A stretch of 64,000 nucleotides of DNA from Lysobacter antibioticus HS124 (lineage in GTDB: Bacteria; Pseudomonadota; Gammaproteobacteria; Xanthomonadales; Xanthomonadaceae), in the NCBI RefSeq assembly GCF_000336385.2, contig NZ_HG424460.1:1-64000 (forward strand), read 5' to 3'. Positions 1 through 12,255 of this stretch are shown here, piece after piece. A model generated the notes under the pieces. It saw nothing but the letters and a program-made list of their open reading frames with translations. It made no database searches and was not told the origin of the DNA. Position 1 is the first letter of the stretch, and every line of letters starts with the position of its first letter. Both the position numbers and the translations under genes were made by a program.

Positions 1-54
1 GCTGAAGTCGTGGCTGGTGGGAAAGCGGAAGAACGTCAGGTTGCGAAAGAACAT
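1..54 (-). CDS. rdgC: RdgC-like recombination-associated protein, N-terminal 18 codons
   Basis: The reading frame starts with ATG at 54 and runs off the left edge. The first residues read MFFRNLTFFRFPTSHDFS, close to the conserved N-terminus of RdgC (MxFRNL...R). RdgC is a ring-shaped DNA-binding protein that modulates RecA; phage copies are common in early recombination operons. It is the last visible gene of the leftward operon, 34 nt after the preceding stop. Only 18 codons are visible, so the call rests on the N-terminal signature alone. Confidence 0.7.
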   Translation of the reverse strand, partial: MFFRNLTFFRFPTSHDFS

Positions 55-88
55 AGTGGGTCCAGATTTGATGTAGAGGTTGGGTGGC

Positions 89-277
89 TTAGGGCAGGGA
101 GACCGCGATTGCGGACAACACCAGCAAGCCGGCTGTGCAGATCAGGACGACGCGGACTGCCCGGCGCTCCCTGGCTCTTGCGCGAAGGCGCGCTGCAGGG
201 CTGGCCTCATGCGACCTGGTCGCGTCGCATACATCCATGGACTCGATGATGCCGAGGACGATCTGGCGGGCTGACAT
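89..277 (-). CDS. Small single-span membrane protein of the leftward operon
   Basis: Encodes 62 residues beginning MSARQIVLGI. The N-terminal two thirds are polar and arginine-rich, and the last 20 residues form one hydrophobic segment (VVLICTAGLLVLSAIAVSLP). The tail-anchored layout suggests the polar part faces the cytoplasm. It starts 2 nt after the stop of the preceding membrane peptide gene, so the two are probably made together. Family not recognised. Confidence 0.6.
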   Translation of the reverse strand: MSARQIVLGIIESMDVCDATRSHEASPAARLRARARERRAVRVVLICTAGLLVLSAIAVSLP

Positions 278-279
278 GC

Positions 280-378
280 TCAGTCCTCCATGGCCGCGAA
301 GGCGATCAAGAGGACGGCGCCGCAGACCATGCCGAGGACGAACAGGCCCACGCAGAATCCGATGTGGACGGTAATCAC
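280..378 (-). CDS. Very small hydrophobic peptide (32 aa), GTG start
   Basis: The start GTG (378-376) overlaps the stop of the upstream gene in a GTGA junction, the coupling style of this whole operon. The 32-residue product is almost entirely one hydrophobic segment (GLFVLGMVCGAVLLIAFAA) ending in MED, so it is probably an inner-membrane peptide. It is next to another single-span membrane protein gene. Support is positional (no gap in a packed operon, coupled start). The function is unknown. Confidence 0.5.
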   Translation of the reverse strand: MITVHIGFCVGLFVLGMVCGAVLLIAFAAMED

Positions 379-626
379 GCGATGGCCCTCCCGTAGACAT
401 GCCAGAACAAGTCAACGAGCTCCCTGGGCGGATTGCTCAGGCCCTTGAGTGCGAGAAATGCCCGTTCGATGTACCGGCTGGCTTCGGGGTCACCGCATTG
501 GGACCGCGCACGGTCTGCTACGACCTGGGCCTGTTCCGGGGTGAGGTTCGAAACCAGGGTATCGACGTCGACATCAACTTCGGCCTCGACGTAGGTCTCG
601 ACGGTTGCGGAAATGGTGCGCATCAC
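375..626 (-). CDS. Phage early protein, unknown, 83 aa
   Basis: Encodes 83 residues beginning MMRTISATVETYVEAEVDVDVD. The first half has an alternating Val/acidic strand-like pattern and the second half is helical. Two adjacent ATG codons (626 and 623) could start it; the upstream stop overlaps them. Member of the translationally coupled leftward operon. I do not recognise the family. Confidence 0.6.
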   Translation of the reverse strand: MMRTISATVETYVEAEVDVDVDTLVSNLTPEQAQVVADRARSQCGDPEASRYIERAFLALKGLSNPPRELVDLFWHVYGRAIA

Positions 627-862
627 GCCGCCTCCGGCCCGTTGGAGCTGAAACCGCTGTGGATGGCGCGACGGAGATAGTTGCAGCCCTCTTGGATCGC
701 GCCGCCGACCGATCGCCCGTGCATGGCAGCGGACAGCCCAATGGAGATGGCGTGACGCCGGATGTCGTCACTGACGCCGGTGTTTCTGGCGCGTTCGTTG
801 ATGCCCTTGCGGATGACGTGCAGGGTTTTCGGGTTGGTGGGGAATTCGGTGACGGTGCCCAT
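623..862 (-). CDS. Phage early protein, unknown, 79 aa
   Basis: Encodes 79 residues (MGTVTEFPTNPKTLHVIRKG...). Basic in the middle and predicted mostly helical, without cysteine pairs for zinc binding and without a clear HTH. The stop overlaps the start of the downstream gene by 4 nt (ATGA). Possibly a small DNA- or host-protein-binding early protein, but nothing in it allows a functional call. Confidence 0.6.
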   Translation of the reverse strand: MGTVTEFPTNPKTLHVIRKGINERARNTGVSDDIRRHAISIGLSAAMHGRSVGGAIQEGCNYLRRAIHSGFSSNGPEAA

Positions 863-864
863 GA

Positions 865-1041
865 TCAGACTCCGGTTGAGGCGTCGTCGCGGGTGAAGTC
901 CGAGCGGTCCTCGGGCACTTCGACGACAGGGAACAGCGGTTGAGGGGAGACCGGGCGCGGAATGTCCCGATAGAGCTGAGGCTTCTCGGTGCCGAAGATC
1001 TCGGCCATGTCTTCGTCGAGGCGTTGCAGCAGCGTGTTCAT
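865..1041 (-). CDS. Phage early protein, unknown, 58 aa
   Basis: Start ATG at 1041 overlaps the preceding stop in an ATGA junction. The 58-residue product (MNTLLQRLDEDMAEIFGTEK...) has an N-terminal helix and a Pro-rich, probably extended C-terminal half. Longer in-frame extension upstream exists but would overlap two neighbours, so the coupled start is preferred. Function unknown. Confidence 0.55.
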   Translation of the reverse strand: MNTLLQRLDEDMAEIFGTEKPQLYRDIPRPVSPQPLFPVVEVPEDRSDFTRDDASTGV

Positions 1042-1232
1042 GCGGACTGCCTCCCTAGAATCCGAATCAGCTCTTCGCGCGCCTCGGTGTAGCGGTTGCT
1101 TGCGGCGGCGAAGGCGTCCTTCATCGGGCGCGACATGTGGGGGTAGCCGCGCAGTCGGCCCATCTCGGCCTCGCTCTTCAAGAACTTGGCCCAGGCCTGG
1201 CGGGCGCGTTCCAGGGATTCGGCGGACGTCAC
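1038..1232 (-). CDS. Phage early protein, unknown, 64 aa
   Basis: Encodes a 64-residue, charged, all-helical protein (MTSAESLERARQAWAKFLKS...). Overlaps both neighbours by 4 nt, so it is translated as part of the leftward operon. No recognised domain. Confidence 0.6.
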   Translation of the reverse strand: MTSAESLERARQAWAKFLKSEAEMGRLRGYPHMSRPMKDAFAAASNRYTEAREELIRILGRQSA

Positions 1233-1567
1233 GACTCACCCCGGGCCTTGGCGAGGGCGGCAATTGCACGACGCAGATCCTCGGCCGTGATTTCGGCGCT
1301 GCCAGCAGACGAGTTGACCGCCCATAGCACACCGTCCTTTGCGGTGTTGCCACCCATCGCGTTGCGAACACGCTCGAACTCTGCGAACGGTGCCAGCGCC
1401 TCATACAGCTCCGGCGCCGCGGCGATCAACGCTCGGTCGGCATCCTTCACGATACAGCCCGCATCACCGTAGCCTCCAAACCACATGATGAGTTCGCCCG
1501 ACGCGCTCTGCGCACCTTCGTACTCGTCTACCACCCAAGGCCCCGGCGTGAACTTGGGCGCGGTCAT
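1229..1567 (-). CDS. Conserved phage protein with GPW...LIAAAPELYEAL signature
   Basis: Encodes 112 residues beginning MTAPKFTPGPWVVDEYEG. It has the hallmarks of a protein widespread in phage early operons: an N-terminal (F)TPGPW motif, a short beta region, then DA-x-LIAAAPELYEAL leading into a helix. The biochemical role of that family is not known to me. The start at 1567 overlaps the preceding stop (ATGA), which is why I chose it over the longer in-frame extension. Confidence 0.7.
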   Translation of the reverse strand: MTAPKFTPGPWVVDEYEGAQSASGELIMWFGGYGDAGCIVKDADRALIAAAPELYEALAPFAEFERVRNAMGGNTAKDGVLWAVNSSAGSAEITAEDLRRAIAALAKARGES

Positions 1568-1866
1568 GGCGCACCCCCGACGCGGGCGAGGGCGGCAGCC
1601 CGGCGGGCTTTGGCGGCCTTGAGCCGTTCGCGGGCCTTCCTGCGGTAGCCGGCGAGTTCCCGAGTCACGGCGGGCGAGTGCCACGGCCGCACCGGCTCGC
1701 AGGCGTTGTAGGCCGCCAGGGCCGCGTCGTACTCCCGATCCGCCTCGATCAGCTCGGCCAGGGCGGCGTCGGCCGCCATCGCCTGGAAATGCTCGAGGCC
1801 CTCGGCCGCTGTGTCGCGGATCAACTGTTGAAGTACGCCGCGCACATCCACAGTGGGCTCAGCCAT
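1564..1866 (-). CDS. Helical phage early protein, 100 aa
   Basis: Encodes 100 residues beginning MAEPTVDVRGVLQQLIRD. Rich in Ala, Glu and Arg, probably a helical bundle or coiled coil, with a basic C-terminal helix (RRKARERLKAAKARRAAA). Chosen start (1866) overlaps the upstream gene by 8 nt. No family recognised. Confidence 0.55.
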   Translation of the reverse strand: MAEPTVDVRGVLQQLIRDTAAEGLEHFQAMAADAALAELIEADREYDAALAAYNACEPVRPWHSPAVTRELAGYRRKARERLKAAKARRAAALARVGGAP

Positions 1867-2077
1867 GGCGGCGGGCCTCCTGGTCAGATGCCGGCTGGTA
1901 GTGGGCAAGAAAGGCGTCCATCGCCTTGCCCGTAATGCCCTTCGCCGTCCACGGCGCGTGGAACCGGACGTAGCCGTCGCGCGACCAGAGCACAGTGGCG
2001 ATAGCGGGCTTCCCGGCGTGGTCCGACTTCCGGCGCCACTTGCTGTTAGGCAGCACATCCACAGCCCCGGCGCTCAT
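1859..2077 (-). CDS. Phage early protein, unknown, 72 aa
   Basis: Encodes 72 residues (MSAGAVDVLPNSKWRRKSDH...). Mixed beta/alpha pattern with several aromatic residues (WSRDGYVRFHAPW), consistent with a small globular domain. ATGA overlap with the upstream gene. Function unknown. Confidence 0.6.
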   Translation of the reverse strand: MSAGAVDVLPNSKWRRKSDHAGKPAIATVLWSRDGYVRFHAPWTAKGITGKAMDAFLAHYQPASDQEARRHG

Positions 2078-2370
2078 GCCGCACCGCCTTTGCCAAAGGC
2101 CAGCGGGTACTTGGCGCGCTCGTCGGCCAGCAAGTCGTCCAGGCTGCGGCGGACGCTCCCGAACTCGCGCACAACATGCAACCAGCCGGAGACAGATCCC
2201 TGGACCATCGTGAGGGCGTGCAGGCGGGGGTACTCCCGCCCCCAGCTCAGGACGGAGGAGGTCTCAGCCTCCGGGTGGGCGTCGAACTCGGCGTCGGTGG
2301 CGCGCTCAAGCCGGTCGACCACGGCTTCAGCATTCTCGACTTCGTCACGGTGTGGCTTGTGAGCGCTCAT
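2074..2370 (-). CDS. Phage early protein, unknown, 98 aa
   Basis: Encodes 98 residues beginning MSAHKPHRDEVENAEAVVDR. Acidic N-terminal helix, central Trp-containing region and a charged C-terminal helix. The start overlaps the stop of the small gene at 2367-2534. No recognised domain. Confidence 0.6.
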   Translation of the reverse strand: MSAHKPHRDEVENAEAVVDRLERATDAEFDAHPEAETSSVLSWGREYPRLHALTMVQGSVSGWLHVVREFGSVRRSLDDLLADERAKYPLAFGKGGAA

Positions 2371-2534
2371 GCCGCCACCTCGGCCGCCAGCTCAGCAGCC
2401 TCGCGCTGCGCCTCAGCCAGCGCCGCGGACTTCGCCAGCGACTCGGACGGCTGCACGTACTCGTAGGTGTCGGCCCGCTGCGCAGCCGCGGCATCGGCCT
2501 GCGACAGGAAGTAGTCGGCGGTCAGGCGGCTCAC
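2367..2534 (-). CDS. Small Ala/Glu-rich peptide (55 aa), GTG start
   Basis: The start GTG (2534-2532) overlaps the TGA of the preceding gene, and its own TGA overlaps the next ATG. It therefore fills exactly the gap between two coupled genes. The product (VSRLTADYFLSQADAAAAQR...) is a helical, amphipathic peptide ending in repeated Ala-Glu segments. Function unknown. Confidence 0.5.
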   Translation of the reverse strand: MSRLTADYFLSQADAAAAQRADTYEYVQPSESLAKSAALAEAQREAAELAAEVAA

Positions 2535-2761
2535 GGCGCACCGTCCTGGCCCTGTTCGGCCACCGGCGCGGCGTCCTGCAGGAGGACGACGGCCTTGTTG
2601 GTGTAGAGGATCGAGGTAGAGACCTCGTTGGCGGCGATGTCCAGGCCAGAGGCCCGGAGGGCGGTCTCGAGCTGCTTGAGCTCAGCCCAGATCCAGTTCG
2701 CGCGGATCCACAGGGGGTGGCGAAGGGAGCCGGGGCTCCCGGTGTTACGGATGGTGTTCAC
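2531..2761 (-). CDS. First gene of the leftward early operon, 76 aa
   Basis: Start chosen at GTG 2761 because a good ribosome site (GGAGG) lies six bases upstream. The alternative ATG at 2806 lies inside an operator, upstream of the likely transcription start. The product (VNTIRNTGSPGSLRHPLW...) has a basic, Trp-containing N-terminal half and a helical centre. As the first gene after the leftward promoter it holds the position of lambda N. I see no arginine-rich N motif strong enough to call it an antiterminator. Confidence 0.6.
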   Translation of the reverse strand: MNTIRNTGSPGSLRHPLWIRANWIWAELKQLETALRASGLDIAANEVSTSILYTNKAVVLLQDAAPVAEQGQDGAP

Positions 2762-2797
2762 TGTTGCCTCCAGTGGCCGAGGGCCATGGGAGGCATA

Positions 2798-2831
2798 GTT
2801 AGCCAATAGCTAACGTTAGTCAACAGCTAAT
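2798..2831 (-). promoter_or_regulatory. Leftward operator pair (OL-like) over the early promoter
   Basis: Two adjacent 17-bp palindromes: GTTAGCCAATAGCTAAC (2798-2814, perfect 6-bp arms) and GTTAGTCAACAGCTAAT (2815-2831). The same palindrome occurs at the cI/cro intergenic region. On the minus strand TTGACT (2823-2818) forms a plausible -35 box, with a weak -10 about 17 bp downstream inside the first operator. Repressor bound here would block the leftward operon, as at lambda OL. Confidence 0.85.
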
Positions 2832-3200
2832 TTTTAGTTCCAGACGAACGGTAGTCGTAGGCGCGACCCGGTGGGTCAGCGGGGGCACAAGGAAGACAGG
2901 GGAGGGAGACGCGCCTTTCGGCTACCTCGAAAGACCGTTCACGCTGGGCGCCTCTGGGCGATCTGAGGGTGAGCGACGCCGATCGGCGACCCTGTAGTTG
3001 ACGGCTTCGTCAACAAGTCATTGATTTAATTGGCACTGTTTCGACGTGGCCGAGACTCGCGCCAAACCTCGTCAATTTGGGTCAAAGCGTTCGATGAATG
3101 ATCGTCTCAATTCCTAAGATCGCTTCACGCGTCAGAACGTAGGCTTTGCTAATGTTCGCGCCGTAACTAGGGTGTAACGCCTCCGGGGGGAGGTCCAACA
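2832..3200. other. Intergenic region between leftward promoter and hicB
   Basis: No gene is supported. It holds a perfect hairpin (GTTGACG 2997-3003, CGTCAAC 3008-3014). Abutting it is a 21-base element (3014-3034) that recurs at the right prophage end (32932-32952). Just before hicB there are two direct GTAAC repeats 11 bp apart (3163 and 3174), which could be an autoregulatory site of the toxin-antitoxin pair. The hicB ribosome site is in the last bases. Confidence 0.5.
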
Positions 3201-3530
3201 ATGAGCCAGAAACCCAATTTGGTAAGCTGCTATTTCGAGCGAGACGGCGATCAGTGGCTCGGCTTTTGCCTGGACTTCACGCTGGTCACGCAGGCTCGTT
3301 CGCTTGAAGAAGCGCACCGCAAACTGGATTCGCAAATCCGCGACTATGTGTCAGATGCGCTCGTTGGCCAAGATCGTGCGTATGCCAATCAACTGCTGAA
3401 TCGCCGCGCACCGCTAAAGTACTGGGCCAAGTTCTACTGGACGATGTTCCAGCAGGTTCTTCGGCACCGAAAGTCGAAGCGCCGTAGAGCAGTCAAAGAA
3501 CATATGTCGATTCCTGCGACTTGCGCCTAA
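3201..3530 (+). CDS. hicB: HicB-like antitoxin
   Basis: Encodes 109 residues. The first 55 resemble the HicB fold: CYFERDGDQWLGFCLDF, then a helix (SLEEAHRKLDSQIRDYV). In canonical HicB this domain binds HicA, and a C-terminal HTH or RHH domain binds DNA. Here the C-terminus is a basic tail (RHRKSKRRRAVKEH) without an evident HTH. It has a strong ribosome site (GGGGAGGT) and lies 3 nt before hicA. Antitoxin-first order is common in phage-borne pairs. The partial match leaves some doubt. Confidence 0.6.
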   Translation: MSQKPNLVSCYFERDGDQWLGFCLDFTLVTQARSLEEAHRKLDSQIRDYVSDALVGQDRAYANQLLNRRAPLKYWAKFYWTMFQQVLRHRKSKRRRAVKEHMSIPATCA

Positions 3531-3533
3531 TGC

Positions 3534-3779
3534 ATGGGCGGACACTTTCCTCCGGTTGGAACCCGGGAAGTTGAAGCCGTCCTAAAGCACCTTGGATACG
3601 AGAAGCGTCCTCAGAACGGGACGAGTCACGTCAAGTGGGTCAAGGATGAGAACGGTAAACGTAGAGTCGTTATCGTCGACGACAACAACGCGCCGTTCAA
3701 AGACCAGGCGCTAGCTTGGATCATCAACCCGATGGGTATCACCAAAAAGCAGTTCTACGAGATCTTGGCGAGCCTCTAG
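3534..3779 (+). CDS. hicA: HicA-like mRNA interferase toxin
   Basis: Encodes 81 residues in the usual HicA size range. It shows the dsRBD-like pattern of HicA: REVEAVLKHLGYEKRPQNGTSHVKW, with the catalytic His in the G-(S/T)-H strand, then a beta hairpin and a C-terminal helix (TKKQFYEIL). HicA cleaves mRNA until neutralised by HicB. It follows the hicB-like gene and ends just before a bidirectional terminator. In a prophage the pair may stabilise lysogeny or act in phage exclusion. Confidence 0.7.
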   Translation: MGGHFPPVGTREVEAVLKHLGYEKRPQNGTSHVKWVKDENGKRRVVIVDDNNAPFKDQALAWIINPMGITKKQFYEILASL

Positions 3780-3781
3780 AC

Positions 3782-3806
3782 AAAAGCCCCGCAATGCGGG
3801 GCTTTT
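3782..3806. terminator. Bidirectional terminator between hicA and the lipoprotein gene
   Basis: A perfect 11-bp stem (AAAAGCCCCGC 3782-3792, GCGGGGCTTTT 3796-3806) with a 3-nt loop and T-runs in both directions. It serves hicA (+) and the convergent lipoprotein gene (-). Confidence 0.9.
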
Positions 3807-3813
3807 TGTTTGG

Positions 3814-4359
3814 CTATTTGATCCGCAGATTCCTACAAGAAATGCAGTCCTCGTTCTGCTTAGCCGCATTTGGAAACGGGCTTGCCCCAAGTCCTTCCAT
3901 TGGATGCTGTAGGCCCTCAAGCTGCGACTTGATCTCGTTTAGTGCGGTCTGCGCCTTAGCCGCGATGTCTCCATTTGTAATGGGCTTCCTATCAACGCGG
4001 CCAAAGGCCGTCTGGTTCTGCAGGAACATGTCCATTGAGACAAAAACCTGTCCAGCATTCTCAACAAAGCTGTATCTGACCTTCATCTCTGGATTGGTCG
4101 AGTTCGCTGGCGTTGCAAGAGCGCGGTACATAAGGGATCTGAAGGAATCATCCATTGGGCTGCTACATATCACCTGATGAGCAGTGTTCTCTTCTATTGC
4201 TCCACCGCCATTAACGCAGCGTTGCACCAAGTGCATCTTCACTGCTTCAGTCGTCGTGCCGCTGATTGTTGCCTGCGGCGTCCGATATGGCGCCGATGAT
4301 GTCGTAGCGCATGCGGTTGTCGAGACTGCGATCGATGCGCCAAGAAGAATCCATTTCAC
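3814..4359 (-). CDS. Prophage-encoded lipoprotein downstream of cI
   Basis: Encodes 181 residues from a GTG start (4359) with GGGGG upstream. The N-terminus (VKWILLGASIAVSTTAC) is a lipoprotein signal with cysteine at position 17. The mature part has Cys pairs (RCVNGG, VICSS, CISC) and no domain I recognise. It lies 17 nt after cI on the same strand, so it is probably expressed from the repressor promoter in lysogens. That makes it a candidate lysogenic-conversion (moron) gene, for example for superinfection exclusion at the envelope. Confidence 0.7.
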   Translation of the reverse strand: MKWILLGASIAVSTTACATTSSAPYRTPQATISGTTTEAVKMHLVQRCVNGGGAIEENTAHQVICSSPMDDSFRSLMYRALATPANSTNPEMKVRYSFVENAGQVFVSMDMFLQNQTAFGRVDRKPITNGDIAAKAQTALNEIKSQLEGLQHPMEGLGASPFPNAAKQNEDCISCRNLRIK

Positions 4360-4376
4360 GGCTACCCCCTTGATTG

Positions 4377-5069
4377 TCAGACTGATTTTATCCCAAGCAC
4401 TGATACCACCTTCCCCCCAACAACAATTCCCTCGCGCTCTATCCTGTAGGCCGGGTAGTCTGGGTTTGCGCTCACGACATACAAGCCGTCTCCACGCATC
4501 TGCAGCATCTTGATCAGGGTCTCGCCCCCAATGTTGATCACATAGACAGCGTCCCCATCGAACCCGTTGACCTCTGTGTCAACCATCACAACGTCGCCGT
4601 TGTCGATCATTGGGCGCATTGATGGGCCGCGGCCGGTAAGCAGTTTGATCCGCCCAGATCTAGGAATTGATCCCAGCTTCCGCCGGACTTCCCAGCCTGC
4701 GATATCAACCTCCCGGATGACTTCTGGGTAGTCTTCATTCTCGACCCCGTCGCCCATGCCTGCAGCTCCGTCCAGCAACTGGAAGCGAACGTATCCGGGC
4801 GGGGTCTCATCGGATGTGACGACCGTCATATCCGAAGATGCGTCTTCCCACTGCGGCCTATCCATCCAGCCGCCGTCGTGGCCGAGAGCAATCGAGATCT
4901 TCTTAGCAACCTCCTCCCCCATGAACTTGCCGCCAAGCAGCTGGGACAGGTAGGAGGGGGCCAGGCCGCCAAGGCGCGCGCCCTGGGCCGTTCGCGTCGT
5001 CGCACCGCGCCTCTTTAGCGCGGACACAACATACGCCAGATTTCGTTTTCGTATGGCGGCGATATCCAT
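4377..5069 (-). CDS. cI: CI-type repressor with S24 (LexA-like) self-cleavage domain
   Basis: Encodes 230 residues. Residues about 5-65 form an HTH_XRE-like DNA-binding domain (AQGARLGGLAPSYLSQLLGGK). Residues 95-230 are a LexA/UmuD-type peptidase with catalytic Ser150 (GPSM), Lys187 (LIKM) and a likely scissile Ala103-Gly104. RecA-stimulated cleavage should trigger induction. It is divergent from the cro-like gene across an operator array. The ATG lies only 8 nt from a GCTAAT box with no Shine-Dalgarno, so the maintenance transcript may be leaderless. Confidence 0.9.
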   Translation of the reverse strand: MDIAAIRKRNLAYVVSALKRRGATTRTAQGARLGGLAPSYLSQLLGGKFMGEEVAKKISIALGHDGGWMDRPQWEDASSDMTVVTSDETPPGYVRFQLLDGAAGMGDGVENEDYPEVIREVDIAGWEVRRKLGSIPRSGRIKLLTGRGPSMRPMIDNGDVVMVDTEVNGFDGDAVYVINIGGETLIKMLQMRGDGLYVVSANPDYPAYRIEREGIVVGGKVVSVLGIKSV

Positions 5070-5077
5070 CGGCTGAG

Positions 5078-5144
5078 ATTAGCCGACCGCTAATCGGAAA
5101 GTGTTCGCTGCGGGCTTGCGATCTTCCGTTAGCTGTGGGCTAAT
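5078..5144. promoter_or_regulatory. OR-like operator array between cI and cro
   Basis: Three 17-bp sites with the pattern RTTAGC-N5-GCTAAY: ATTAGCCGACCGCTAAT (5078-5094, perfect palindrome), a degenerate GTTCGCTGCGGGCTTGC (5103-5119), and GTTAGCTGTGGGCTAAT (5128-5144). Their centres are exactly 25 bp apart. The outer sites contain GCTAAT, which reads as a -10 box for cI (leftward) and cro (rightward; TTGCGA at 5116-5121 with 17-bp spacing). Binding should thus repress both promoters differentially. Confidence 0.85.
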
Positions 5145-5151
5145 CATCGCC

Positions 5152-5394
5152 ATGAGTACAGAACCCCTTGATCGCGCCATCGCCATCTTGTCTGGCCAGA
5201 AGGCGCTTGCAGACGCCATCGGCGTCAAGTCGCCTTCGATATCTGGTTGGTACAGCCGCGGTGTGGTTCCGGCAAAACGATGTCGAGCGATTGAGATGGC
5301 CACCGGCGGTCAAGTGACCTGTCACGACCTTCGCCCCGACATCTTCGGCCCGAAGCCTGCGAACGACGAACCCTCGGCAGAGGAGGCGGCTTGA
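5152..5394 (+). CDS. cro: Cro-like transcriptional regulator (YdaS-type)
   Basis: Encodes 80 residues beginning MSTEPLDRAIAILSGQ. The HTH pattern (QKALADAIGVKSPSISGWYSRGVVPAKRCRAIEMATGG) is typical of short Cro/YdaS regulators next to phage repressors. It should bind the operators at 5078-5144 and favour lytic growth. The ATG is 7 nt past the presumed -10, with no ribosome site, so the message may be leaderless. The in-frame codon at 5101 was rejected as a start because it lies inside the operator region. Confidence 0.8.
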   Translation: MSTEPLDRAIAILSGQKALADAIGVKSPSISGWYSRGVVPAKRCRAIEMATGGQVTCHDLRPDIFGPKPANDEPSAEEAA

Positions 5395-5411
5395 GATGGC
5401 CGCCTTGGCGA

Positions 5412-5657
5412 TCAGTTCGTTGGACCTGCCGGCGCTGACATCCCGGCGGTTTCCGCCCTGTCTGCCGCCTGGATCATGGCTTGTCCCAGCTCGCGAAGTT
5501 GAGCTGTTTGAAACACGAAATTTGGCGATCGATGAGATTGCGCAGCTGTCTCCATCGGGCTCACGAGGTAATGCAGCGTGAGCGCGACCGCGCCGTATGC
5601 GGGGATGGTTCGGAGATCCCAGCCTGATACGGGGCGCAGGGGTAGGTCGTCCGTCAT
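5412..5657 (-). CDS. BssS-like small protein, opposite strand
   Basis: Encodes 81 residues with the pattern GWDLRTIPAYGAVALTLHYLVSPME... followed by QLRELGQAMIQAADRAE. This is reminiscent of BssS-family proteins, which are regulators linked to biofilm formation in enterobacteria and occur in many phages. It is transcribed toward cro between two rightward genes and has GGAG upstream of the ATG. Opposite-strand reading is preferred because this frame has a coherent fold pattern. Confidence 0.5.
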   Translation of the reverse strand: MTDDLPLRPVSGWDLRTIPAYGAVALTLHYLVSPMETAAQSHRSPNFVFQTAQLRELGQAMIQAADRAETAGMSAPAGPTN

Positions 5658-5792
5658 GTCGGTCTCCGGTGTGGGTTGGGCTGGGCAGTCCCGAGCCTAC
5701 ACCGGCAGACCGGCTCCACTTCCCTGAGCAGTTCTCCATGCCGCAATGGTGCGGCACAGCAAATCCACAGTCTCCATTCGTGAGATCGAGCG

Positions 5793-6254
5793 ATGAATGT
5801 CAGCGACGCAGCACACCAGACCGTGAAGAGCTACCCCGGCGGGGCAGAGGCACTGGCGCCGCGGATGGGGATGAGTGGGGCGCTGCTCCGGGGGAAGGTG
5901 AACCCGAACAGCGACCGCAACCATCTGACCTTGCAGGAGGCAGACGAGCTCATGGGACTGACCGGCGACTACCGGATCCTGCATGCGCTCAATGCCGCCC
6001 ATGGCTTCGTGGCGACGCCGGCCGAAGCGGAAGAGGGCGCGGACCTGCTGACCTCGAGCTTGGCCGCGCAAGGCGGATTTGGGGAGCTGGCGCTGACGTT
6101 GCAGCAGGCATTGGCTGACGGGGTGATCACCTCGAACGAGCTGAAGCAGTTCGAGGCGATCGGCGCCAGCGTGCAGGCCTTGGTGCTGCGCCTGGTGAGT
6201 TCGGCGCGGGCGCACCACGAGGCGAGTAGGCCTCGGCAACTGAGGGCGGCGTGA
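5793..6254 (+). CDS. CII-family phage regulatory protein (CP76-like)
   Basis: Encodes 153 residues. The N-terminal third (SYPGGAEALAPRMGMSGALLRGKVNPNSDR, then LTLQEADELMGLTGD) matches the phage regulatory CII / CP76 family found in Xanthomonas and Pseudomonas phages. The C-terminal part is helical (GELALTLQQALADGVITSNELKQFEAI). The likely role is transcription activation in the lysogeny decision. Its stop overlaps the next start (TGATG). Confidence 0.75.
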   Translation: MNVSDAAHQTVKSYPGGAEALAPRMGMSGALLRGKVNPNSDRNHLTLQEADELMGLTGDYRILHALNAAHGFVATPAEAEEGADLLTSSLAAQGGFGELALTLQQALADGVITSNELKQFEAIGASVQALVLRLVSSARAHHEASRPRQLRAA

Positions 6255-6541
6255 TGGCTAAGTTCAAGCCGGGAACCAGGATCAAGAAGACACGCGGTAA
6301 GGCGTGGATCGGGATGACCGGGATTGTGGTGCCTGACCCGCCGAATTTACCGGACCGGCACGACCACACGATCCAAGTCGATCAGCCGTTCATCGGCAGT
6401 GATGGCAAGCAGCAGCCGGCAGGGACGATCGCGCAGATCGTGGGCGAGCAATGGGACCCGATCATTCCCGAGGGGATGAAGCCGGTGGAGTGGTCGGAGT
6501 GTCATTGGCAGCCCACCAAGACGCCAGAGAAGGCGGGATGA
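6254..6541 (+). CDS. Phage early protein with SH3-like pattern, unknown
   Basis: Encodes 95 residues (MAKFKPGTRIKKTRGKAWIG...). It reads as a small beta-barrel: KFKPGTRIKKTRG...GMTGIVV...HTIQVDQPF, similar in style to KOW/SH3 domains. The ATG at 6254 overlaps the CII-like stop. Function unknown. Confidence 0.55.
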   Translation: MAKFKPGTRIKKTRGKAWIGMTGIVVPDPPNLPDRHDHTIQVDQPFIGSDGKQQPAGTIAQIVGEQWDPIIPEGMKPVEWSECHWQPTKTPEKAG

Positions 6542-6542
6542 G

Positions 6543-6728
6543 ATGGAGCGCCGAGCCGGCCAGATCCCTGATGGGTTCAGGCAAGCGCGCGAGGCGCTGG
6601 AAGGCCCCGAGCGGCCGATGACCTGGCGGGAACGGGTCGAGTTCGAAGCGCAGAAAGCAGAAGAGATGGCAAGGGCAGAAGCCCGGCGCCTGCACACCCC
6701 GCAACTACCCCTGGAATTAGAAGCATGA
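6543..6728 (+). CDS. Small charged helical protein, 61 aa
   Basis: Encodes 61 residues (MERRAGQIPDGFRQAREALE...), rich in Glu and Arg and probably helical. It starts 1 nt after the preceding stop and overlaps the next gene by 4 nt. Function unknown. Confidence 0.5.
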   Translation: MERRAGQIPDGFRQAREALEGPERPMTWRERVEFEAQKAEEMARAEARRLHTPQLPLELEA

Positions 6729-7033
6729 CCATCGATCTCAAAGCGTCCTTAGGCACCGGCGCCCGCGTAACTCCGCGATGGATAGGGATGCGCGTTGGAG
6801 GTGAGCCGCAGCAGCAGCCGAAGAACTGCGACAGCCGCCAAGTAGAAATCGTATTCAGGTTTGTCTGCTGGGCGCACAGAACCAGGCAGTTCCCGAATGC
6901 AACCCAGATCTGTGACCGCTTCGGCGTGAGCCGCGCAACGGCATTCAGATGGAGAGAAAGCCTCGCCGCCGCCATGGGCATTGCTCTGCCTCCGGACACC
7001 AGCAGGGATGAAGCAGGGGAGATCAGGTCGTGA
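6725..7033 (+). CDS. HTH protein upstream of replication gene
   Basis: Encodes 102 residues. Residues 55-85 contain a helix-turn-helix (PNATQICDRFGVSRATAFRWRESL). It overlaps the upstream gene by 4 nt and the replication gene by 4 nt. It could bind DNA near the replication region or help recruit the initiator; the specific role is inference. Confidence 0.6.
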   Translation: MTIDLKASLGTGARVTPRWIGMRVGGEPQQQPKNCDSRQVEIVFRFVCWAHRTRQFPNATQICDRFGVSRATAFRWRESLAAAMGIALPPDTSRDEAGEIRS

Positions 7034-7938
7034 GCCTCTACGGCAAGGTCTACGCGAAGTTCTGGGAAAGCGAGGACATGCGGGCCTTGTCAGATGACGG
7101 GCGGATGTTGGCCCTGTACCTCTTGACGTGTAAGCACCGAACTATTGCGGGTTGCTTCAGGCTACCTGATGGCTACGCAAGCGAAGACTTGCAATGGGGT
7201 TTCGAAAGGGTTTCGAAAGGGTTCTGTGAACTGTCTGAGAAGGGTTTTGCAACCCGATGTGACGTCACGAATTGGGTCTGGATCCGCCGATACCTGGAAC
7301 AGAACCCGCTGGAGAACCCAAATCAACGTAAGGCGGCAGCTAAGCTAGTCCTGACGATCCCGTCACGCTGCACCTGGGGGGCTGAGTTCCTGGCCTGGTG
7401 TGCAGACGAGATGGCGATCGACCTGAGCAGAGAAGAGTTCGCGAACCGTTTCGAAAGGGTTTCGGAACAGTCGTCTAACCAGTATCAGTATCAGGAACAG
7501 AAGCAGGAAGAGCAAAAGCAAAATCCCCCCAAACCCCCCGCTGCCGCGGGGGGCTCCCCTGGGCGGAAGAGGGAGGGGGTTACCTACCAGCAGTTCGTTC
7601 AAGCTTGCCGGGAGCAGGGTGAGCGCCCGTTGCCGGCTGATCACTCCGTTTTCGCCTTCGCCACCGATTCCGGCATCCCCCGCGAATACCTCGAGCTCGC
7701 ATGGCGCGAGTTTGCTAGGCAGTACCGGGACACCCAGAAGACTCAGGCCGGCGTCCTTGGTTGGCGGAAGAAGTTCGAGAACTGCGTGCGTCGGAACTGG
7801 TTCAAGCTCTGGTGGTTCACGCCTGAACAGGCCTGTGAGCTGACCACGGCAGGACAGCAGCTGAAGCGCGAGCGTGAGGCTGATCAGAAACGCAAGGCCG
7901 AGGAGCAAACGACGTCTGGTCAGGAGCAGGCGGCATGA
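7030..7938 (+). CDS. O-like phage replication initiation protein
   Basis: Encodes 302 residues from a GTG start overlapping the preceding stop. The N-terminal half (MSLYGKVYAKFWESEDMRALSDDGRMLALYLLT) is a winged-helix-type DNA-binding region seen in phage replisome organisers. A Gln/Glu- and Pro-rich linker (residues about 155-180) follows. The C-terminal half (TYQQFVQACREQGERPLP...) has the DnaT-like pattern of helicase-loader segments. The gene overlaps a DnaB helicase gene. Repeats and a GC hairpin inside it may be the replication origin. Confidence 0.7.
   Translation: MSLYGKVYAKFWESEDMRALSDDGRMLALYLLTCKHRTIAGCFRLPDGYASEDLQWGFERVSKGFCELSEKGFATRCDVTNWVWIRRYLEQNPLENPNQRKAAAKLVLTIPSRCTWGAEFLAWCADEMAIDLSREEFANRFERVSEQSSNQYQYQEQKQEEQKQNPPKPPAAAGGSPGRKREGVTYQQFVQACREQGERPLPADHSVFAFATDSGIPREYLELAWREFARQYRDTQKTQAGVLGWRKKFENCVRRNWFKLWWFTPEQACELTTAGQQLKREREADQKRKAEEQTTSGQEQAA
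7197..7465 (+). repeat. TTTCGAAAG repeats inside the replication gene (possible iterons)
   Basis: Tandem copies of GGGTTTCGAAAG at 7197-7208 and 7208-7219 are spaced 11 bp. A second pair (GTTTCGAAAG 7448-7457, then GGGTTTCGGAA from 7457) has the same 11-bp spacing. Each contains the palindrome TTCGAA. Lambda O binds iterons within its own gene, so an origin here is plausible but unproven. Confidence 0.45.
7534..7553. repeat. GC-rich hairpin in replication gene linker
   Basis: Perfect 8-bp inverted repeat CCCCCCGC (7534-7541) and GCGGGGGG (7546-7553) with a 4-nt loop. It falls in the Pro/Ala/Gly linker of the O-like protein and follows an A-rich tract from about 7500. It may be part of the origin or simply codon-driven. 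Confidence 0.5.
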
Positions 7939-9440
7939 ATTCCCTCCGCGTTCCGCCGCAGTCCGTTGAAGCTGAGCAGGCCGTGTTGGGCGGCCTGATG
8001 CTGGCACCTGAAGCCTACGATCACATTGCAGACCTGGTTTCAGAGGGCGACTTCTATCGCCGGGACCATCGGCTGATTTTTCGGGCCGTGAGTGAACTGG
8101 CTGAAAAGAACCGACCGTTCGACGCGGTAACCCTGGGCGAATGGTTCGATTCGCGCGGCCTGTCCGAGCATGTCGCCGGCGGCGCCTACCTGATCGAGCT
8201 GGCCAGCACCACGCCGTCGGCGGCCAACATCGCTGCCTACGCCGAGATCGTTCGCGACAAGGCGTTGGCGCGGGCGGTCATCGAGGTCGGAACGGAAATG
8301 GTCAACTCCGGCTTTCAACCTGAGGGTAGGGCAGGATCCGATCTGGTCGTCGATGCGCAGGCCGCGGTTAACAACATCGCCAGTGTTGGGGGGGGTAATG
8401 GCGGGCTTCAGCCTGTTGGGTCTGGCCTCGTGGAGCTATACCAAGACATTCAGGGCTATTACGAGGGCACGATCAGCCCTGGAATCCCGCTTCCCTGGGC
8501 GGCTATGCGCGACATCGTCCCCGGGCTTGGTGATGGGGATCTGGTCATCGGCGCTGGGCGGCCTGGAATGGGAAAGACGGTCTGGCTGTTCGACATAGGC
8601 GTCGACATCGCCGAGAACGAGGGGGATTTCGCAGGGTTCTCGCTGGAGATGTCCAGGCGCCAGCTTGACCTACGGCTACTGTCCAAGCTGAGCGGGGTTC
8701 CTATGCAACGCCTGAGGACGCAGGGCGGTGTGGAGGAAATGGAGTGGCCGCAAATTGCCGAGGCAATGCGGCGCATGAAGGAAATGCGGTTGCACATTGA
8801 CGACCAGGCCGATCTGACAGTTCACCAGATTCGGGCCAGGGCCAGACGGCTGAATGCCCAGCTGAAGGCTTCGTCGGGTGGCAAGCGGCGACTGCGTGGG
8901 ATCGGGGTGGACTACCTCCAGTTGGTATCTGGCCCGGCAAAGCGCGACGTCAATCGGGCTGAGGTGGTCGGGGAGGTTTCGCGCAACCTGAAACTGATGG
9001 CTAAGGAATTGCAGTGCCCGGTGATTGCTTTGTCCCAGCTGAATCGGGCATCTGAGACCAGGCAGAACAAGCGACCTGGCATGGCCGATCTCCGCGAGTC
9101 TGGCGCGATCGAGCAGGATGCAGACGTCATCGTGTTTCTCTATCGGGAGGACTACTACAACCCGGAGACGTCAGCTCGAGGAATTTCTGAGGCCATTGTC
9201 GCCAAGCAGCGGAGTGGGAGGACCGATACCGCCTACCTTCGACACGACCTGGCCTGCTCAAGGTTCCTGGACTACAGCGGCGGAAAGCCGAACTACAAGG
9301 GGGCAAACGGATGCTTCTCCCAGGATAACCACGACGGGTTCGAAGATGATCAGGTGTCTTCGAACCCGTCCCGGACTCCCGCGCGCCGCTCACGCGCGCA
9401 TGGCAATTCTGCGGCCGATAGGCAGGCGGGTCCGCAATGA
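7935..9440 (+). CDS. dnaB: Replicative DNA helicase, DnaB family
   Basis: Encodes 501 residues. The N-terminal domain is the DnaB helical domain (VPPQSVEAEQAVLGGLML). The RecA-like C-terminal domain has Walker A GRPGMGKT near residues 207-214, a DnaB-typical GFSLEMS, and IGVDYLQLV as Walker B. The H4 region reads SQLNRASETR. A disordered Ser/Arg tail follows residue 460. It unwinds DNA at the phage origin, probably loaded by the O-like protein whose gene overlaps it by 4 nt. Confidence 0.92.
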   Translation: MNSLRVPPQSVEAEQAVLGGLMLAPEAYDHIADLVSEGDFYRRDHRLIFRAVSELAEKNRPFDAVTLGEWFDSRGLSEHVAGGAYLIELASTTPSAANIAAYAEIVRDKALARAVIEVGTEMVNSGFQPEGRAGSDLVVDAQAAVNNIASVGGGNGGLQPVGSGLVELYQDIQGYYEGTISPGIPLPWAAMRDIVPGLGDGDLVIGAGRPGMGKTVWLFDIGVDIAENEGDFAGFSLEMSRRQLDLRLLSKLSGVPMQRLRTQGGVEEMEWPQIAEAMRRMKEMRLHIDDQADLTVHQIRARARRLNAQLKASSGGKRRLRGIGVDYLQLVSGPAKRDVNRAEVVGEVSRNLKLMAKELQCPVIALSQLNRASETRQNKRPGMADLRESGAIEQDADVIVFLYREDYYNPETSARGISEAIVAKQRSGRTDTAYLRHDLACSRFLDYSGGKPNYKGANGCFSQDNHDGFEDDQVSSNPSRTPARRSRAHGNSAADRQAGPQ

Positions 9441-9796
9441 AGCGAGGCAGATCGACCAACGCACCGACCAAGGCGCAGCAGCGGCGGTTTGAGCTGATCA
9501 AGGAGCGCGGGTGCGTGGCCTGCTGGCTCCACTGCCAGGTCCACCGGTACCCGGAGATCCATCACCTGACGATCGGTGGCAAGCACGGCCAGAAGCGCCG
9601 GGGCCATGACTTCACGATCGGGTTGTGCGCCTGGCACCACCGCGGGATCAATGCATTCGGGAACGCTGATCTTGGCCGGCAGACCTACGGGCCGAGTCTG
9701 CATCACCACGCCAGGGAGTTCCGGGCTGCCTTCGGCAGTGATGACTCCCTGCTCGAGTTCCAGAACGCGATCTTGGACCTGAGGAAGGCTGCATGA
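9437..9796 (+). CDS. Ref-like HNH-superfamily nuclease
   Basis: Encodes 119 residues with the pattern of P1 Ref-family recombination nucleases: ERGCVACW, EIHHLTIGGK, GLCAWHHRG, and GPSLHHHAREFRAAFG. Ref is a RecA-dependent nuclease that cuts at D-loops. The Cys and His residues are placed for zinc and metal binding. It overlaps dnaB by 4 nt. Confidence 0.75.
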   Translation: MKRGRSTNAPTKAQQRRFELIKERGCVACWLHCQVHRYPEIHHLTIGGKHGQKRRGHDFTIGLCAWHHRGINAFGNADLGRQTYGPSLHHHAREFRAAFGSDDSLLEFQNAILDLRKAA

Positions 9797-10116
9797 GGCG
9801 GCCTAAGGCGAAGCGGGATGCGAACCATGGCCCGGTAGTGAAGCGGTTCGAGGAATTGGGCTGCAGCGTGGTGGAGCTGCATCACGCTGGAATCCCGGGA
9901 TTTCCCGACTTGGTGGTGGGTTGCTTGGGTGTGAACCATCTCGTCGAGGTGAAGAACCCAGATACGGCCTACGGCCGGGCCGGGCTGAATGCGAATCAGC
10001 AGACCTTCAACAGGGACTGGAGAGGGGAGCGGATGTTTGCGGTGTCGAGCCTGGATGAGGCGGCGGCACTGGTCCAGAACTGGAGGCGGGCGGCGAAGTC
10101 CCGGACAGCGGCATGA
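9793..10116 (+). CDS. VRR-NUC domain nuclease
   Basis: Encodes 107 residues. It shows the PD-(D/E)XK core of VRR-NUC proteins: GIPGFPDLVVG followed by NHLVEVKNPD, then the Q of NANQQTFNRDW. Stand-alone phage VRR-NUC proteins are structure-selective nucleases and may resolve branched DNA. Overlaps both neighbours by 4 nt. Confidence 0.75.
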   Translation: MRRPKAKRDANHGPVVKRFEELGCSVVELHHAGIPGFPDLVVGCLGVNHLVEVKNPDTAYGRAGLNANQQTFNRDWRGERMFAVSSLDEAAALVQNWRRAAKSRTAA

Positions 10117-10274
10117 AATCGGCAAAGCAGCGGGCACGGGAGATGACGGATCAGCAGCTCCACGACATGGACAGGGCTCTGCGTAAGGAGATCCCTGCGG
10201 CCCAGTCGTTGCACGACGCGATCAAGCGGGAGAGGCAGGCCAGGTACAAGCGTCGATTGAAGGAGGCGGCATGA
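10113..10274 (+). CDS. Small basic helical peptide, 53 aa
   Basis: Fills the space between the nuclease and antiterminator genes with 4-nt overlaps on both sides. The product (MKSAKQRAREMTDQQLHDMD...) is a basic, entirely helical peptide. No function can be assigned. Confidence 0.55.
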   Translation: MKSAKQRAREMTDQQLHDMDRALRKEIPAAQSLHDAIKRERQARYKRRLKEAA

Positions 10275-10807
10275 GCGGGGGTGTCGACTTGAAGGCAGAG
10301 CTGAAGCGCTGGGGCTACTACAGCGTCACCCGATTCGCGGCGAACGACGATGGGCTGAGTGGCGGCGACAGCTACTTGGCGAAAGCCAAGGATCTTGCGC
10401 CTGGGACGAAAGAGCGGGCCTTGCGCGTTCTCATCGGACGAGACGGAGAGTCCAGGCGCCGCCTGATGGCAGACGGTGCCGGCGTGAAGGGGATGCACGT
10501 GGTGCCGACTTGGGCCTGCGACCCTGTCCCTGCAAAGAATGACGCCTCGCCGCCAAGCACGACCTTTGCGGTGGTGGACCTGGGCATACCTGACGACCTG
10601 CGTTGGATTGACGACGCGGTGCGGTCGCTGTCGCGCCGGTACCCGGTCAGGGCTCAGGTGCTGCGGGAGGAGTTCTGTGGGGTGGGTACTCAGCGGATGA
10701 AGGCGGGCAGGGTGTCTCGCGGGTATGGCGGGGCACTGTCCTTGAGGCAGTACAAGTACGAGCTACAGCTGGCAATGGATTGGATGCGGATGAGAGTTGC
10801 GGCTTGA
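10271..10807 (+). CDS. Probable late-gene antiterminator (Q-like)
   Basis: Encodes 178 residues. The C-terminal half (IDDAVRSLSRRYPVRAQVLREEFCG...LSLRQYKYELQLAMDWM) resembles the sigma-r4-like helical region of phage antitermination proteins. It is the last early gene, directly before a strong promoter and a closely following terminator, the position of lambda Q. The family match is by pattern only, so the role relies mainly on position. Confidence 0.5.
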   Translation: MSGGVDLKAELKRWGYYSVTRFAANDDGLSGGDSYLAKAKDLAPGTKERALRVLIGRDGESRRRLMADGAGVKGMHVVPTWACDPVPAKNDASPPSTTFAVVDLGIPDDLRWIDDAVRSLSRRYPVRAQVLREEFCGVGTQRMKAGRVSRGYGGALSLRQYKYELQLAMDWMRMRVAA

Positions 10808-10820
10808 TGCAAGAAAGTGC

Positions 10821-10850
10821 TTGACAAAGGGCGTACCGATTCTGTTGAAT
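10821..10850 (+). promoter_or_regulatory. Probable late promoter (pR'-like)
   Basis: TTGACA (10821-10826) and TTGAAT (10845-10850) separated by 18 bp, just after the Q-like gene. The box is inside an inverted repeat CTTGACA (10820-10826) and TGTCAAG (10859-10865). Transcription would enter the terminator at 10877-10901 about 20 nt later. Confidence 0.7.
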
Positions 10851-10876
10851 ATTGGTACTGTCAAGAATTGTCCCTG

Positions 10877-10901
10877 AAGCCCTGGCCCAGCGCCGGGGCT
10901 T
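10877..10901 (+). terminator. Terminator just after the late promoter (tR'-like)
   Basis: Stem AAGCCCTGGC (10877-10886) with GCCGGGGCTT (10892-10901), one T-G wobble, followed by CTTCGTT. In lambda-type phages such a terminator blocks the late transcript until Q acts. Confidence 0.7.
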
Positions 10902-11012
10902 CTTCGTTCCAACGCCTTCTCAGCACCACCAACAGGCCGCCCAAGAAGCCTTAAGGCTCAACTGGTTACGGCTGAATTGAGTGGCCGAACAGGCCGCCTC
11001 AGCACCACCACC

Positions 11013-11038
11013 AAGCCCTGCGAGTGATCGCGGGGCTT
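11013..11038 (+). terminator. Second terminator before the amidase gene
   Basis: Stem AAGCCCTGCG (11013-11022) with CGCGGGGCTT (11029-11038), followed by TGCGTTT. Similar in sequence to the first terminator. The segment between them repeats CAGCACCACCA and AACAGGCCGCC, suggesting a duplicated regulatory unit. Confidence 0.6.
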
Positions 11039-11060
11039 TGCGTTTGCGGAGCCACAACGC

Positions 11061-11489
11061 ATGCGACAGATCACTGCTTTGGTTGTGCATTGCAGCGCGA
11101 CTCCCGCCGGTAAGCCGTTCAGGGCTGCAGACATCGATCGATGGCATCGGGAGAAGGGATGGGTCTGCATCGGGTATCACTTCGTGATCCCGCTGGACGG
11201 AAGTGTCGAACCTGGCCGGCCGGTTGCTGAGCCTGGCGCCCATGTTGAGGGGCATAACCGCGACACGATCGGGATCTGCTTGATCGGAGGTGTGGACTCG
11301 CTCGGCAAGCCTGCCAATACGTTCAATGAGCGCCAGTTCGAAGCACTTGAGATGCAGTTGCGTGCTCTGCGCAGCCGGTTTCCTCAAGCGAAGATCCAGG
11401 GGCACCGCGACTTCCCAGGCGTGAAGAAGGCCTGTCCGTCTTTCGACGTGCGCGCCTGGTGCCGCGCCCGCGGCCTGGACCCGAAGTGA
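11061..11489 (+). CDS. Endolysin: N-acetylmuramoyl-L-alanine amidase (T7 lysozyme type)
   Basis: Encodes 142 residues of an Amidase_2 domain. Predicted zinc ligands are His10 (VVHCSATP), His115 (GHRDF) and Cys125 (KACPSFD); Tyr39 and Lys123 match the catalytic Tyr and Lys of T7 lysozyme. It cleaves the amide between muramic acid and the peptide stem at the end of infection. No signal peptide is visible, so a holin is expected; the next gene is a candidate. It is the first gene of the late operon. Confidence 0.9.
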   Translation: MRQITALVVHCSATPAGKPFRAADIDRWHREKGWVCIGYHFVIPLDGSVEPGRPVAEPGAHVEGHNRDTIGICLIGGVDSLGKPANTFNERQFEALEMQLRALRSRFPQAKIQGHRDFPGVKKACPSFDVRAWCRARGLDPK

Positions 11490-11782
11490 TGGACGGCGAT
11501 TCGGTGGGTTACGCCGTCGGCGCCGGCGGGCTGCTGCTGGCGCTGGGCCAGGCCGCTTGGCAGCGGTTCTTCAGCGCCGAAGGAAAGGCAAACGATGCGT
11601 TGGTCCAGCAACTCGGCGAACGCATCACTGCGCAGGAAACGCGCATGACGAACCTGGAGCAGGGGCTGGACGAAGAGCGCAAGCTCCGGCGCGAGGCCGA
11701 AAGCCAGGTATTCGCCCTACGCCTGCGCGTGACCCAGCTCGAAACCGAGCTTCGCCACCACGGAATCGAGGTCCCAACATGA
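11489..11782 (+). CDS. Membrane/coiled-coil protein, putative holin
   Basis: Encodes 97 residues from ATG 11489, overlapping the amidase stop. One hydrophobic segment (residues 7-22, YAVGAGGLLLALGQAAW) is followed by a long coiled coil (TAQETRMTNLEQGLDEERKL). Position between the endolysin and spanin genes makes it the best holin candidate, although most of it is coiled coil. Confidence 0.55.
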   Translation: MDGDSVGYAVGAGGLLLALGQAAWQRFFSAEGKANDALVQQLGERITAQETRMTNLEQGLDEERKLRREAESQVFALRLRVTQLETELRHHGIEVPT

Positions 11783-12255
11783 GCATCATGAGTCGCGTCC
11801 TGCTGGCTTTGTTGATCGGGCTAGCTGCCCTGGTCCTGTGGCAGCGTGGCTCGTTGTCTGCGGCCGAGCGGGCACGTGACGCCGCGGTGGAGCAGCGCGA
11901 CTCCGCCGTCGCCGAGCGCGACAACGCCAACAAGATAATCGCCGACGAGCGCAGGCGGGCTGACGAGGCCAACGCCATCGCCGCCAAGTTCGAACAGGAG
12001 AAGCGTGATGCAGAAGCGAATGGTGCTGCTGTTGCTGCTGGCCTGCGCGCTGGCAGCCTCAGCCTGCGGAAGCGTTGGGAAGGCTGTGAAGCCCGAATGT
12101 CCGCGGCCGGCGCCGGTGGCGGCGAGCCTGATGCAGGAGCCGCAGACCGAGCGGAAAGTGCGGGCCGAATTGTTCGAGCCGCTGCCGAGTGCGACGCCCA
12201 GGTCCGCGGGCTCCAAGCCCAAGTGAAGGCCGATCGTGCCGAGGTGACCAAGTGA
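11779..12255 (+). CDS. Rz-like inner-membrane spanin
   Basis: Encodes 158 residues. An N-terminal membrane anchor (VLLALLIGLAALVLW) is followed by a coiled-coil periplasmic region (RDSAVAERDNANKII...). This is the i-spanin layout. A lipoprotein gene (12008-12226) is nested in the +1 frame, the hallmark of Rz/Rz1. Together they fuse inner and outer membranes after peptidoglycan is cut. Confidence 0.85.
   Translation: MSIMSRVLLALLIGLAALVLWQRGSLSAAERARDAAVEQRDSAVAERDNANKIIADERRRADEANAIAAKFEQEKRDAEANGAAVAAGLRAGSLSLRKRWEGCEARMSAAGAGGGEPDAGAADRAESAGRIVRAAAECDAQVRGLQAQVKADRAEVTK
12008..12226 (+). CDS. Rz1-like outer-membrane spanin lipoprotein, nested in Rz
   Basis: Lies wholly inside the Rz gene in the +1 frame. 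Encodes 72 residues beginning MQKRMVLLLLLACALAASAC; the signal peptide ends in a lipobox with cysteine at residue 20. The mature part is short and Pro-containing (CPRPAPVAAS), as in Rz1. ATG 12008 is preferred over the adjacent GTG at 12005. Confidence 0.85.
   Translation: MQKRMVLLLLLACALAASACGSVGKAVKPECPRPAPVAASLMQEPQTERKVRAELFEPLPSATPRSAGSKPK

Follow-up and report, generated by a model that had tools for sequence, protein, structure and literature searches.

Within a 64,000-nucleotide stretch of Lysobacter antibioticus HS124 DNA (contig NZ_HG424460.1, positions 1 to 64,000; hereafter the window), a prophage carries 17-base pair (bp) palindromes at two control regions, and we conclude, with a probability of about 0.92, that these are the operators OL1-2 (left) and OR1-3 (right) of a lambda-type CI/Cro lysis/lysogeny switch with a specificity of its own, their binding by the repressors being predicted from the sequence. 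The right-hand set lies between the divergent cI (minus strand) and cro (plus strand) genes, as in a lambda-type switch, and the same operators are repeated as two sites beyond cI, at a putative left promoter.

A motif search of the window found exact copies of RTTAGC-N5-GCTAAY at 2798-2814 (OL1, the palindrome GTTAGCCAATAGCTAAC), at 5078-5094 (OR3, adjoining cI) and at 5128-5144 (OR1, adjoining cro), the latter two also being exact palindromes. An earlier reading of the sequence, made without database searches (the sequence-only reading), had placed the pattern at four positions, and for these three it stands; the fourth, at 2815-2831 (OL2, GTTAGTCAACAGCTAAT), has one mismatch that had been missed, and is spaced 17 bp from OL1. 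The degenerate fifth copy that the same reading had proposed at 5103-5119 (OR2) carries three mismatches to the 12-base pattern and reads TTCGC-N5-GCTTG, and it does fall exactly midway between its neighbors, giving right-hand centers of 5086, 5111 and 5136 and a spacing of 25/25. The exact ten-base core, TTAGC-N5-GCTAA, occurs three times in the window, compared to a mean of 0.02 and a maximum of 1 in 100 dinucleotide shuffles, and four times with up to one mismatch (mean 0.39, maximum 3, again in 100 shuffles). A third left-hand site was sought and rejected, there being none close to 2798 among the matches with up to 3/12 mismatches.

In the 5.14-Mb host genome the exact 12-base pattern was found only at 2798, 5078 and 5128, and with up to one mismatch at seven places, four of them in this prophage (20 for the backwards-read control). 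The exact core gave four places, namely the three prophage sites and one upstream of the rpoH gene, and with up to one mismatch 12 places, again four in this prophage (control, 93). The rpoH-side copy overlaps a longer 9-N9-9 inverted repeat, TTAGCAGTC-N9-GACTGCTAA (G000:C13:23032-23058; L049 2033-2059), immediately upstream of rpoH; among 19 other genomes from the genus, 19/19 keep the left arm of this repeat and 17/19 the right arm, while the inner GCTAA is present in 1/19. We take the repeat, provisionally, to resemble the CIRCE/HrcA operator. A host-wide regulon was rejected, as the sole extra exact core belongs to a genus-conserved inverted repeat whose inner match is not itself conserved. 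Since the exact 12-base copies are limited to the prophage and the rpoH copy is explained otherwise, the random scatter of equally good copies through the host, named in the sequence-only reading as grounds for abandoning its proposal, is not observed.

The minus-strand gene beside the right-hand set (4377-5069) would encode a CI repressor, its product combining an N-terminal domain of predicted helix-turn-helix (HTH)-like helices with a C-terminal Peptidase_S24 domain (PF00717, E 2.4e-17) that is predicted to be self-cleaving. In the structure model (mean predicted local distance difference test score, pLDDT, of 71; 76-90 by blocks over residues 1-70) the N-terminal helices span residues 3-20, 26-32, 38-45 and 52-61, the third of which (38-45) reads PSYLSQLL. 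Fold matches included LexA and the lambda and 186 repressors, several of them covering the S24 part alone, and Pfam gave no HTH match in the N-terminal domain. On the plus strand, the product of 5152-5394 is a Cro-type repressor matching Pfam YdaS_toxin (PF15943, E 9.1e-22) and P22_Cro (E 1.3e-7), and its closest solved structure by sequence is 3bd1, a "Cro protein".

Relatives picked by protein similarity and not by the motif, in a protein search of 395 genomes of the family, carry the same arrangement. In L011/L041, CI is 54% and Cro 51% identical to the window's (Cro over 65 residues), and in L036/L040 and L042 the match extends over the CI N-terminal domain, at 43-46% identity. In each of L040, L041 and L042 there are three OR-type sites together with a left pair, spaced 27 bp in L040 and L042 and 18 in L041. 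The layout recurs in Stenotrophomonas phage S1, where OR2 is weaker (TGCGC-N5-GCTTG) and OR1 and OR3 carry a single mismatch apiece. The scan of related phages that had been proposed as a check therefore came out in favor of the operators, the three right-hand sites and the left pair recurring in all four. Variant OR triples, with a weak middle site, were seen in KS9, BgManors32, IFTN9 and CF63a, and no site with up to three mismatches in SfV, yong2 and Va_PF430-3, which have related repressors (61-131 bases read). The CI of L053 (of the kind found in L042; a relative of phage S1) has no Pfam match. L005 was rejected as independent confirmation, being 100% identical to the window.

These relatives also bear on whether only the four good copies are operators and the middle one is a chance match within a promoter, which we consider unlikely. 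The middle copy has three mismatches, and at that threshold the 12-base pattern occurs 41 times window-wide, with no excess over chance (shuffle mean 34.4; 14/100 shuffles reach 41); moreover, its right half overlaps a -35-like TTG. Core copies with up to 3/10 mismatches, on the other hand, occupy 114 of the 63,986 window positions (0.18%), which makes a copy exactly at the midpoint unlikely, though this is not decisive alone, and a similar element is present in L040, L042 and S1, and in weaker form in L041 (TTACC-N5-GATTG), none of them motif-selected. In these four regions it lies 23-25 bp from its neighbors, and in L040 and L042 both halves, TTCGC and GCTTG, are kept in the same orientation as in the window, even though the hexamer overlaps the right half alone.

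We also scanned viral contigs and the family genomes with the OR2-to-OR1 pattern TTCGC-N5-GCTTG-N8-12-TTAGC-N5-GCTAA. As the contigs were selected by this pattern, its 20 bases are conserved by construction and only other features count as evidence; many of the contigs are related, and the counts are of non-independent events. The pattern was found in 24 viral contigs, one being this prophage, and in 22 of the 23 others it lies between divergent CI- and Cro-type open reading frames (ORFs), 14 of them of class A (CI starting MDVTS or MDAIT; gap 10) and eight of class B (CI of the MKTIDEI/SQVSQW kind; gap 8). The reverse-order pattern was found in this prophage only among the viral contigs. Four of the 395 family genomes (G000, G390, G343 and G286) contain the OR2-to-OR1 pattern, in all cases between CI- and Cro-type genes, and the backwards-read control gave 0. 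A left pair accompanies 18 of the 22 regions, at 27 bp in 11 of class A and, in seven of class B, at 35 bp (four), 25 (two) or 33 (one), where pairs of 33-35 bp were taken from the list of single sites with up to one mismatch, the automatic pairing having spanned 15-32 bp; in the other four contigs, of which only 255-1272 bases are present leftward, no left pair was seen. One class B contig, L055, has two further single left-side sites (up to one mismatch). The gap between the middle and right sites in viral contigs was 8 or 10 bases and never 9, with 8-12 allowed.

What the sequence-only reading overlooked is that the deviant operator bases coincide with would-be promoter hexamers: GCTTG(ACA) at OR2 would form a -35 element for the rightward promoter PR, and the OL2 mismatch creates, on the minus strand, TTGACT (2823-2818), the probable -35 of the leftward promoter PL, whose probable -10 is overlapped by OL1. 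The departure of OR2 and OL2 from the palindrome would then reflect bases held in common with -35 hexamers, as at lambda OR2. In the window the probable PR -35, TTGCGA (5116-5121, plus strand), overlaps OR2 at the position where class A relatives have TTGACA, and a possible -10, TAATCA (5141-5146, plus strand), follows after a 19-bp spacer. GCTTG extends to TTGACA, a -35 hexamer, in 17/17 class A regions (the 14 contigs together with L040, L042 and S1), and in class B the OR2 TTG opens a hexamer located 17 bp from a TAATAT inside OR1 in five of the eight contigs (L052, L055, L064, L070 and L074) and 17 bp from TAACAT or TAAATT in the remaining three.

The distance from the cI ATG to the OR2 center is likewise nearly constant: it is 42 bp in the window and in 17/17 class A regions, whereas six class B contigs and G286 have 43, and L074, KS9, BgManors32, IFTN9 and CF63a have 44, using, among several CAT triplets, the one that starts the aligned CI. 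Such a position (center about -42, from the probable transcription start) would fit activation of the cI promoter, PRM. The probable PRM -10, TAATCT (5076-5081, minus strand), would occupy positions -12 to -7 of a leaderless cI and has no recognizable -35, and together with the 42-bp geometry it makes a leaderless cI activated from OR2 the simplest reading.

As to which protein reads the sites, we scored 24 loci (L010 and L012-L034) in which the CI C-terminal domain is accompanied by another or a diverged N-terminal domain, and 0/24 had two sites (up to two mismatches, near the predicted cI start), whereas the positives L011 and L036, scored in the same way, had two each. Apart from these positives, three loci were left out of the 24: L035, which matches in the N-terminal domain only and has no site; L038, at 28% identity and likewise without a site; and L037, which gave no tblastn hit and was unscored. 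The lack of paired sites where the N-terminal domain is another or a diverged one argues that the sites follow the DNA-binding domain, and, judging from these comparisons, the operator tracks the CI N-terminal domain in close relatives and disappears in more remote ones. L035, whose CI N-terminal domain is ~41% identical over residues 1-91, has no site with up to two mismatches near the cI start; it has a different inverted repeat, CGGGAACATTCCCG, upstream of cI and another helix 3 (QVQVSQWL), possibly a second specificity of the same family. A recognition-helix rule based on "SQ" alone was rejected, as L035, L080 and L092 have the helix SQ and no such sites.

We regard it as quite improbable that Cro or a host factor, and not CI, is the main reader of the repeats. 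YdaS, which in CP-933P takes the place of Cro, is reported to give footprints on its own divergent region (PMC8630535), and the window's Cro matches Pfam YdaS_toxin; the Cro proteins of the window and L011, with their 51% identity over 65 residues, also share an operator type. The Cro proteins of L040 and L042, however, are 70% identical to each other and have only a short C-terminal match to that of the window, yet their operators are the same, the common element being the CI N-terminal domain; further, the 24 loci just described lack paired sites, and the one exact ten-base copy outside the prophage is explained otherwise. The evidence that Cro also reads the sites is less strong than the evidence for CI. 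It is scarcely credible that the palindromes are promoter words arisen by coincidence, with -10 elements of the TAAT/TTAG type on each strand: the sites do lie near start codons or probable promoters, and a -10 can be seeded by GCTAA, but their twofold symmetry, their spacing, the exact copies at two loci and the shuffle statistics speak otherwise, as do the 24 CI loci.

In the lysis/lysogeny switch that we favor, dimers of the 4377-5069 repressor would bind the palindromes via the N-terminal HTH and, at OR1/OR2 and OL1/OL2, would shut PR and PL, possibly with looping; at OR2, 42 bp from the cI start, CI would touch RNA polymerase at PRM and raise its own leaderless transcript, an activation that CI at OR3 would limit. 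Upon DNA damage the S24 domain would bring about the loss of CI, and Cro (5152-5394), acting at the same sites, would from then on keep PRM silent.

Several observations weigh against this lambda-type reading. A sigma-70 consensus promoter scan of the window listed none at OL or OR, and PR would need its 19-bp -35/-10 spacer (likewise 19 bp in class A), so the promoter positions are given here as probable or possible; OL consists of two abutting sites, compared to three in lambda. The OR2 center of L041 is 52 bp, not 42, from the predicted cI start, no OR triple was recognized in L073, and Xanthomonas phage Rb1, the top-ranked named-phage CI match (33% identity), showed no site with up to three mismatches in the bases examined. 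Among the 24 loci, three (L014, L019 and L030) have one site each, and the cI starts in that test were extrapolated from the alignment, while only 2/20 more distant, class-level relatives of the N-terminal domain (L076 and L095, both of genome G741) have at least two sites. Finally, the OR2-OR1 pair of L065 precedes a HigB_toxin/HTH_3 gene pair (about 3327-4068), with no CI-type start nearby. The L065 pattern could be due to chance, or be an operator borrowed by the toxin-antitoxin pair.

To summarize, this is an ordinary kind of genetic switch, a further case of the known lambda type with a different operator word. It offers an operator code for a set of temperate phages, most of them unnamed, in which the 15-bp word would predict immunity grouping; a lambda-like right operator persists where both the C-terminal domain of CI and the Cro protein have been exchanged for others, and the weak-looking OR2 is given a reason. 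More tentatively, the SYLSQ/SYLNQ N-terminal domain and its TTAGC-N5-GCTAA operators may have been joined, as one movable cassette, to C-terminal domains that are unrelated to each other (S24 in the window and L041, one lacking a Pfam match in L053), a possibility for which we see somewhat less than even odds. If so, phages with different induction triggers would share one operator language, with the 42-44 bp OR2-cI geometry nearly fixed, and cross-immunity would evolve independently of induction. To us, the most interesting aspects are the conserved compromise at OR2 and such C-terminal-domain shuffling under one operator word.

The remaining genes of the region begin with the first leftward gene (2531-2761, minus strand; GTG start, GGAGG upstream), which has the OL set upstream and a product with no Pfam, NCBIfam or PHROGs match. 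Between OL and cI (3201-3779) lie an ORF matching phrog_12841 and a HicA-type ORF, both directed rightward toward cI, and the short stretch 3' of the HicA-type gene (3782-3812) recurs in several genomes of the genus and reads like a common terminator hairpin. Downstream of cI, in the rex position, 3814-4359 (minus strand) matches phrog_3152 and has, by eye, a lipoprotein-like start, making it a candidate exclusion protein. Downstream of cro is a CII-type regulator (5793-6254, plus strand; Phage_CP76), and the interval from cro to the CII gene holds an 81-residue BssS-type gene in antisense orientation (5412-5657, minus strand); a stretch similar to this region (80% over 274 bases) is present in another genome of the genus, G263. 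Rfam returned nothing at gathering thresholds on bases 1-12000.

We recognized no published operator with the TTAGC-N5-GCTAA word in our searches of open-licence literature, and the nearest experimentally tested system found was the PaaR2/YdaS switch of CP-933P in E. coli O157:H7. According to PMC8630535, YdaS (Cro) and PaaR2 both give footprints on repeats that overlap PRM and PR, the repressor gene lacks a leader, PRM is activated by PaaR2 at low levels, and PL has OL-type operators. Like the window, CP-933P has a YdaS-family Cro and toxin-antitoxin genes in its immunity region, but there these genes share the repressor operon, unlike in the window, and its repeats are four, equally spaced, 18 bp long and of consensus GTTTAGTAA, which TTAGC-N5-GCTAA does not match. 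Since the YdaS-family Cro is present and the GTTTAGTAA repeats are not, we consider that the two probably work alike and do not assign the window to the CP-933P type. Phage S1 and the class A contigs are closer, sharing with the window the operator word, the 25/25 spacing, the 42-bp geometry and a related CI N-terminal domain; they differ in an OL spacing of 27 and an OR3 beginning GTAGC, and class A further in a CI C-terminal domain to which Pfam gives no match (in L053, the one scanned) and, in L040 and L042, in a Cro of another kind. Burkholderia phage KS9, whose repressor gp41 when inactivated yields lytic virions according to PMC8310193, has three OR-type sites spaced 24/25 with related half-sites, but its operator is a variant, ATAGC-aaaac-GCTAA, and its protein more distant. 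Lambda itself (NC_001416) shares the divergent cI and cro, three 17-bp OR sites and an OL beyond cI. Its OR2 (37974-37990) is centered 42 bp from the cI start (37982 versus 37940), as in the window. In lambda the right end of OR2, GTGTTG followed by ACT, reaches into the PR -35, and that of OR1, GTGATA followed by AT, into the -10. The window differs from lambda in its operator word, in an OR spacing of 25/25 compared to 23/24, in an OR1-to-cro distance of 16 bp compared to 35, and in having HicA-type and BssS-type genes within the region. A lambda OL/OR layout in different sequence and spacing, as first proposed, is supported by the divergent CI/Cro pair, the three-plus-two sites of the relatives, the 42-bp geometry and the 24-locus test.

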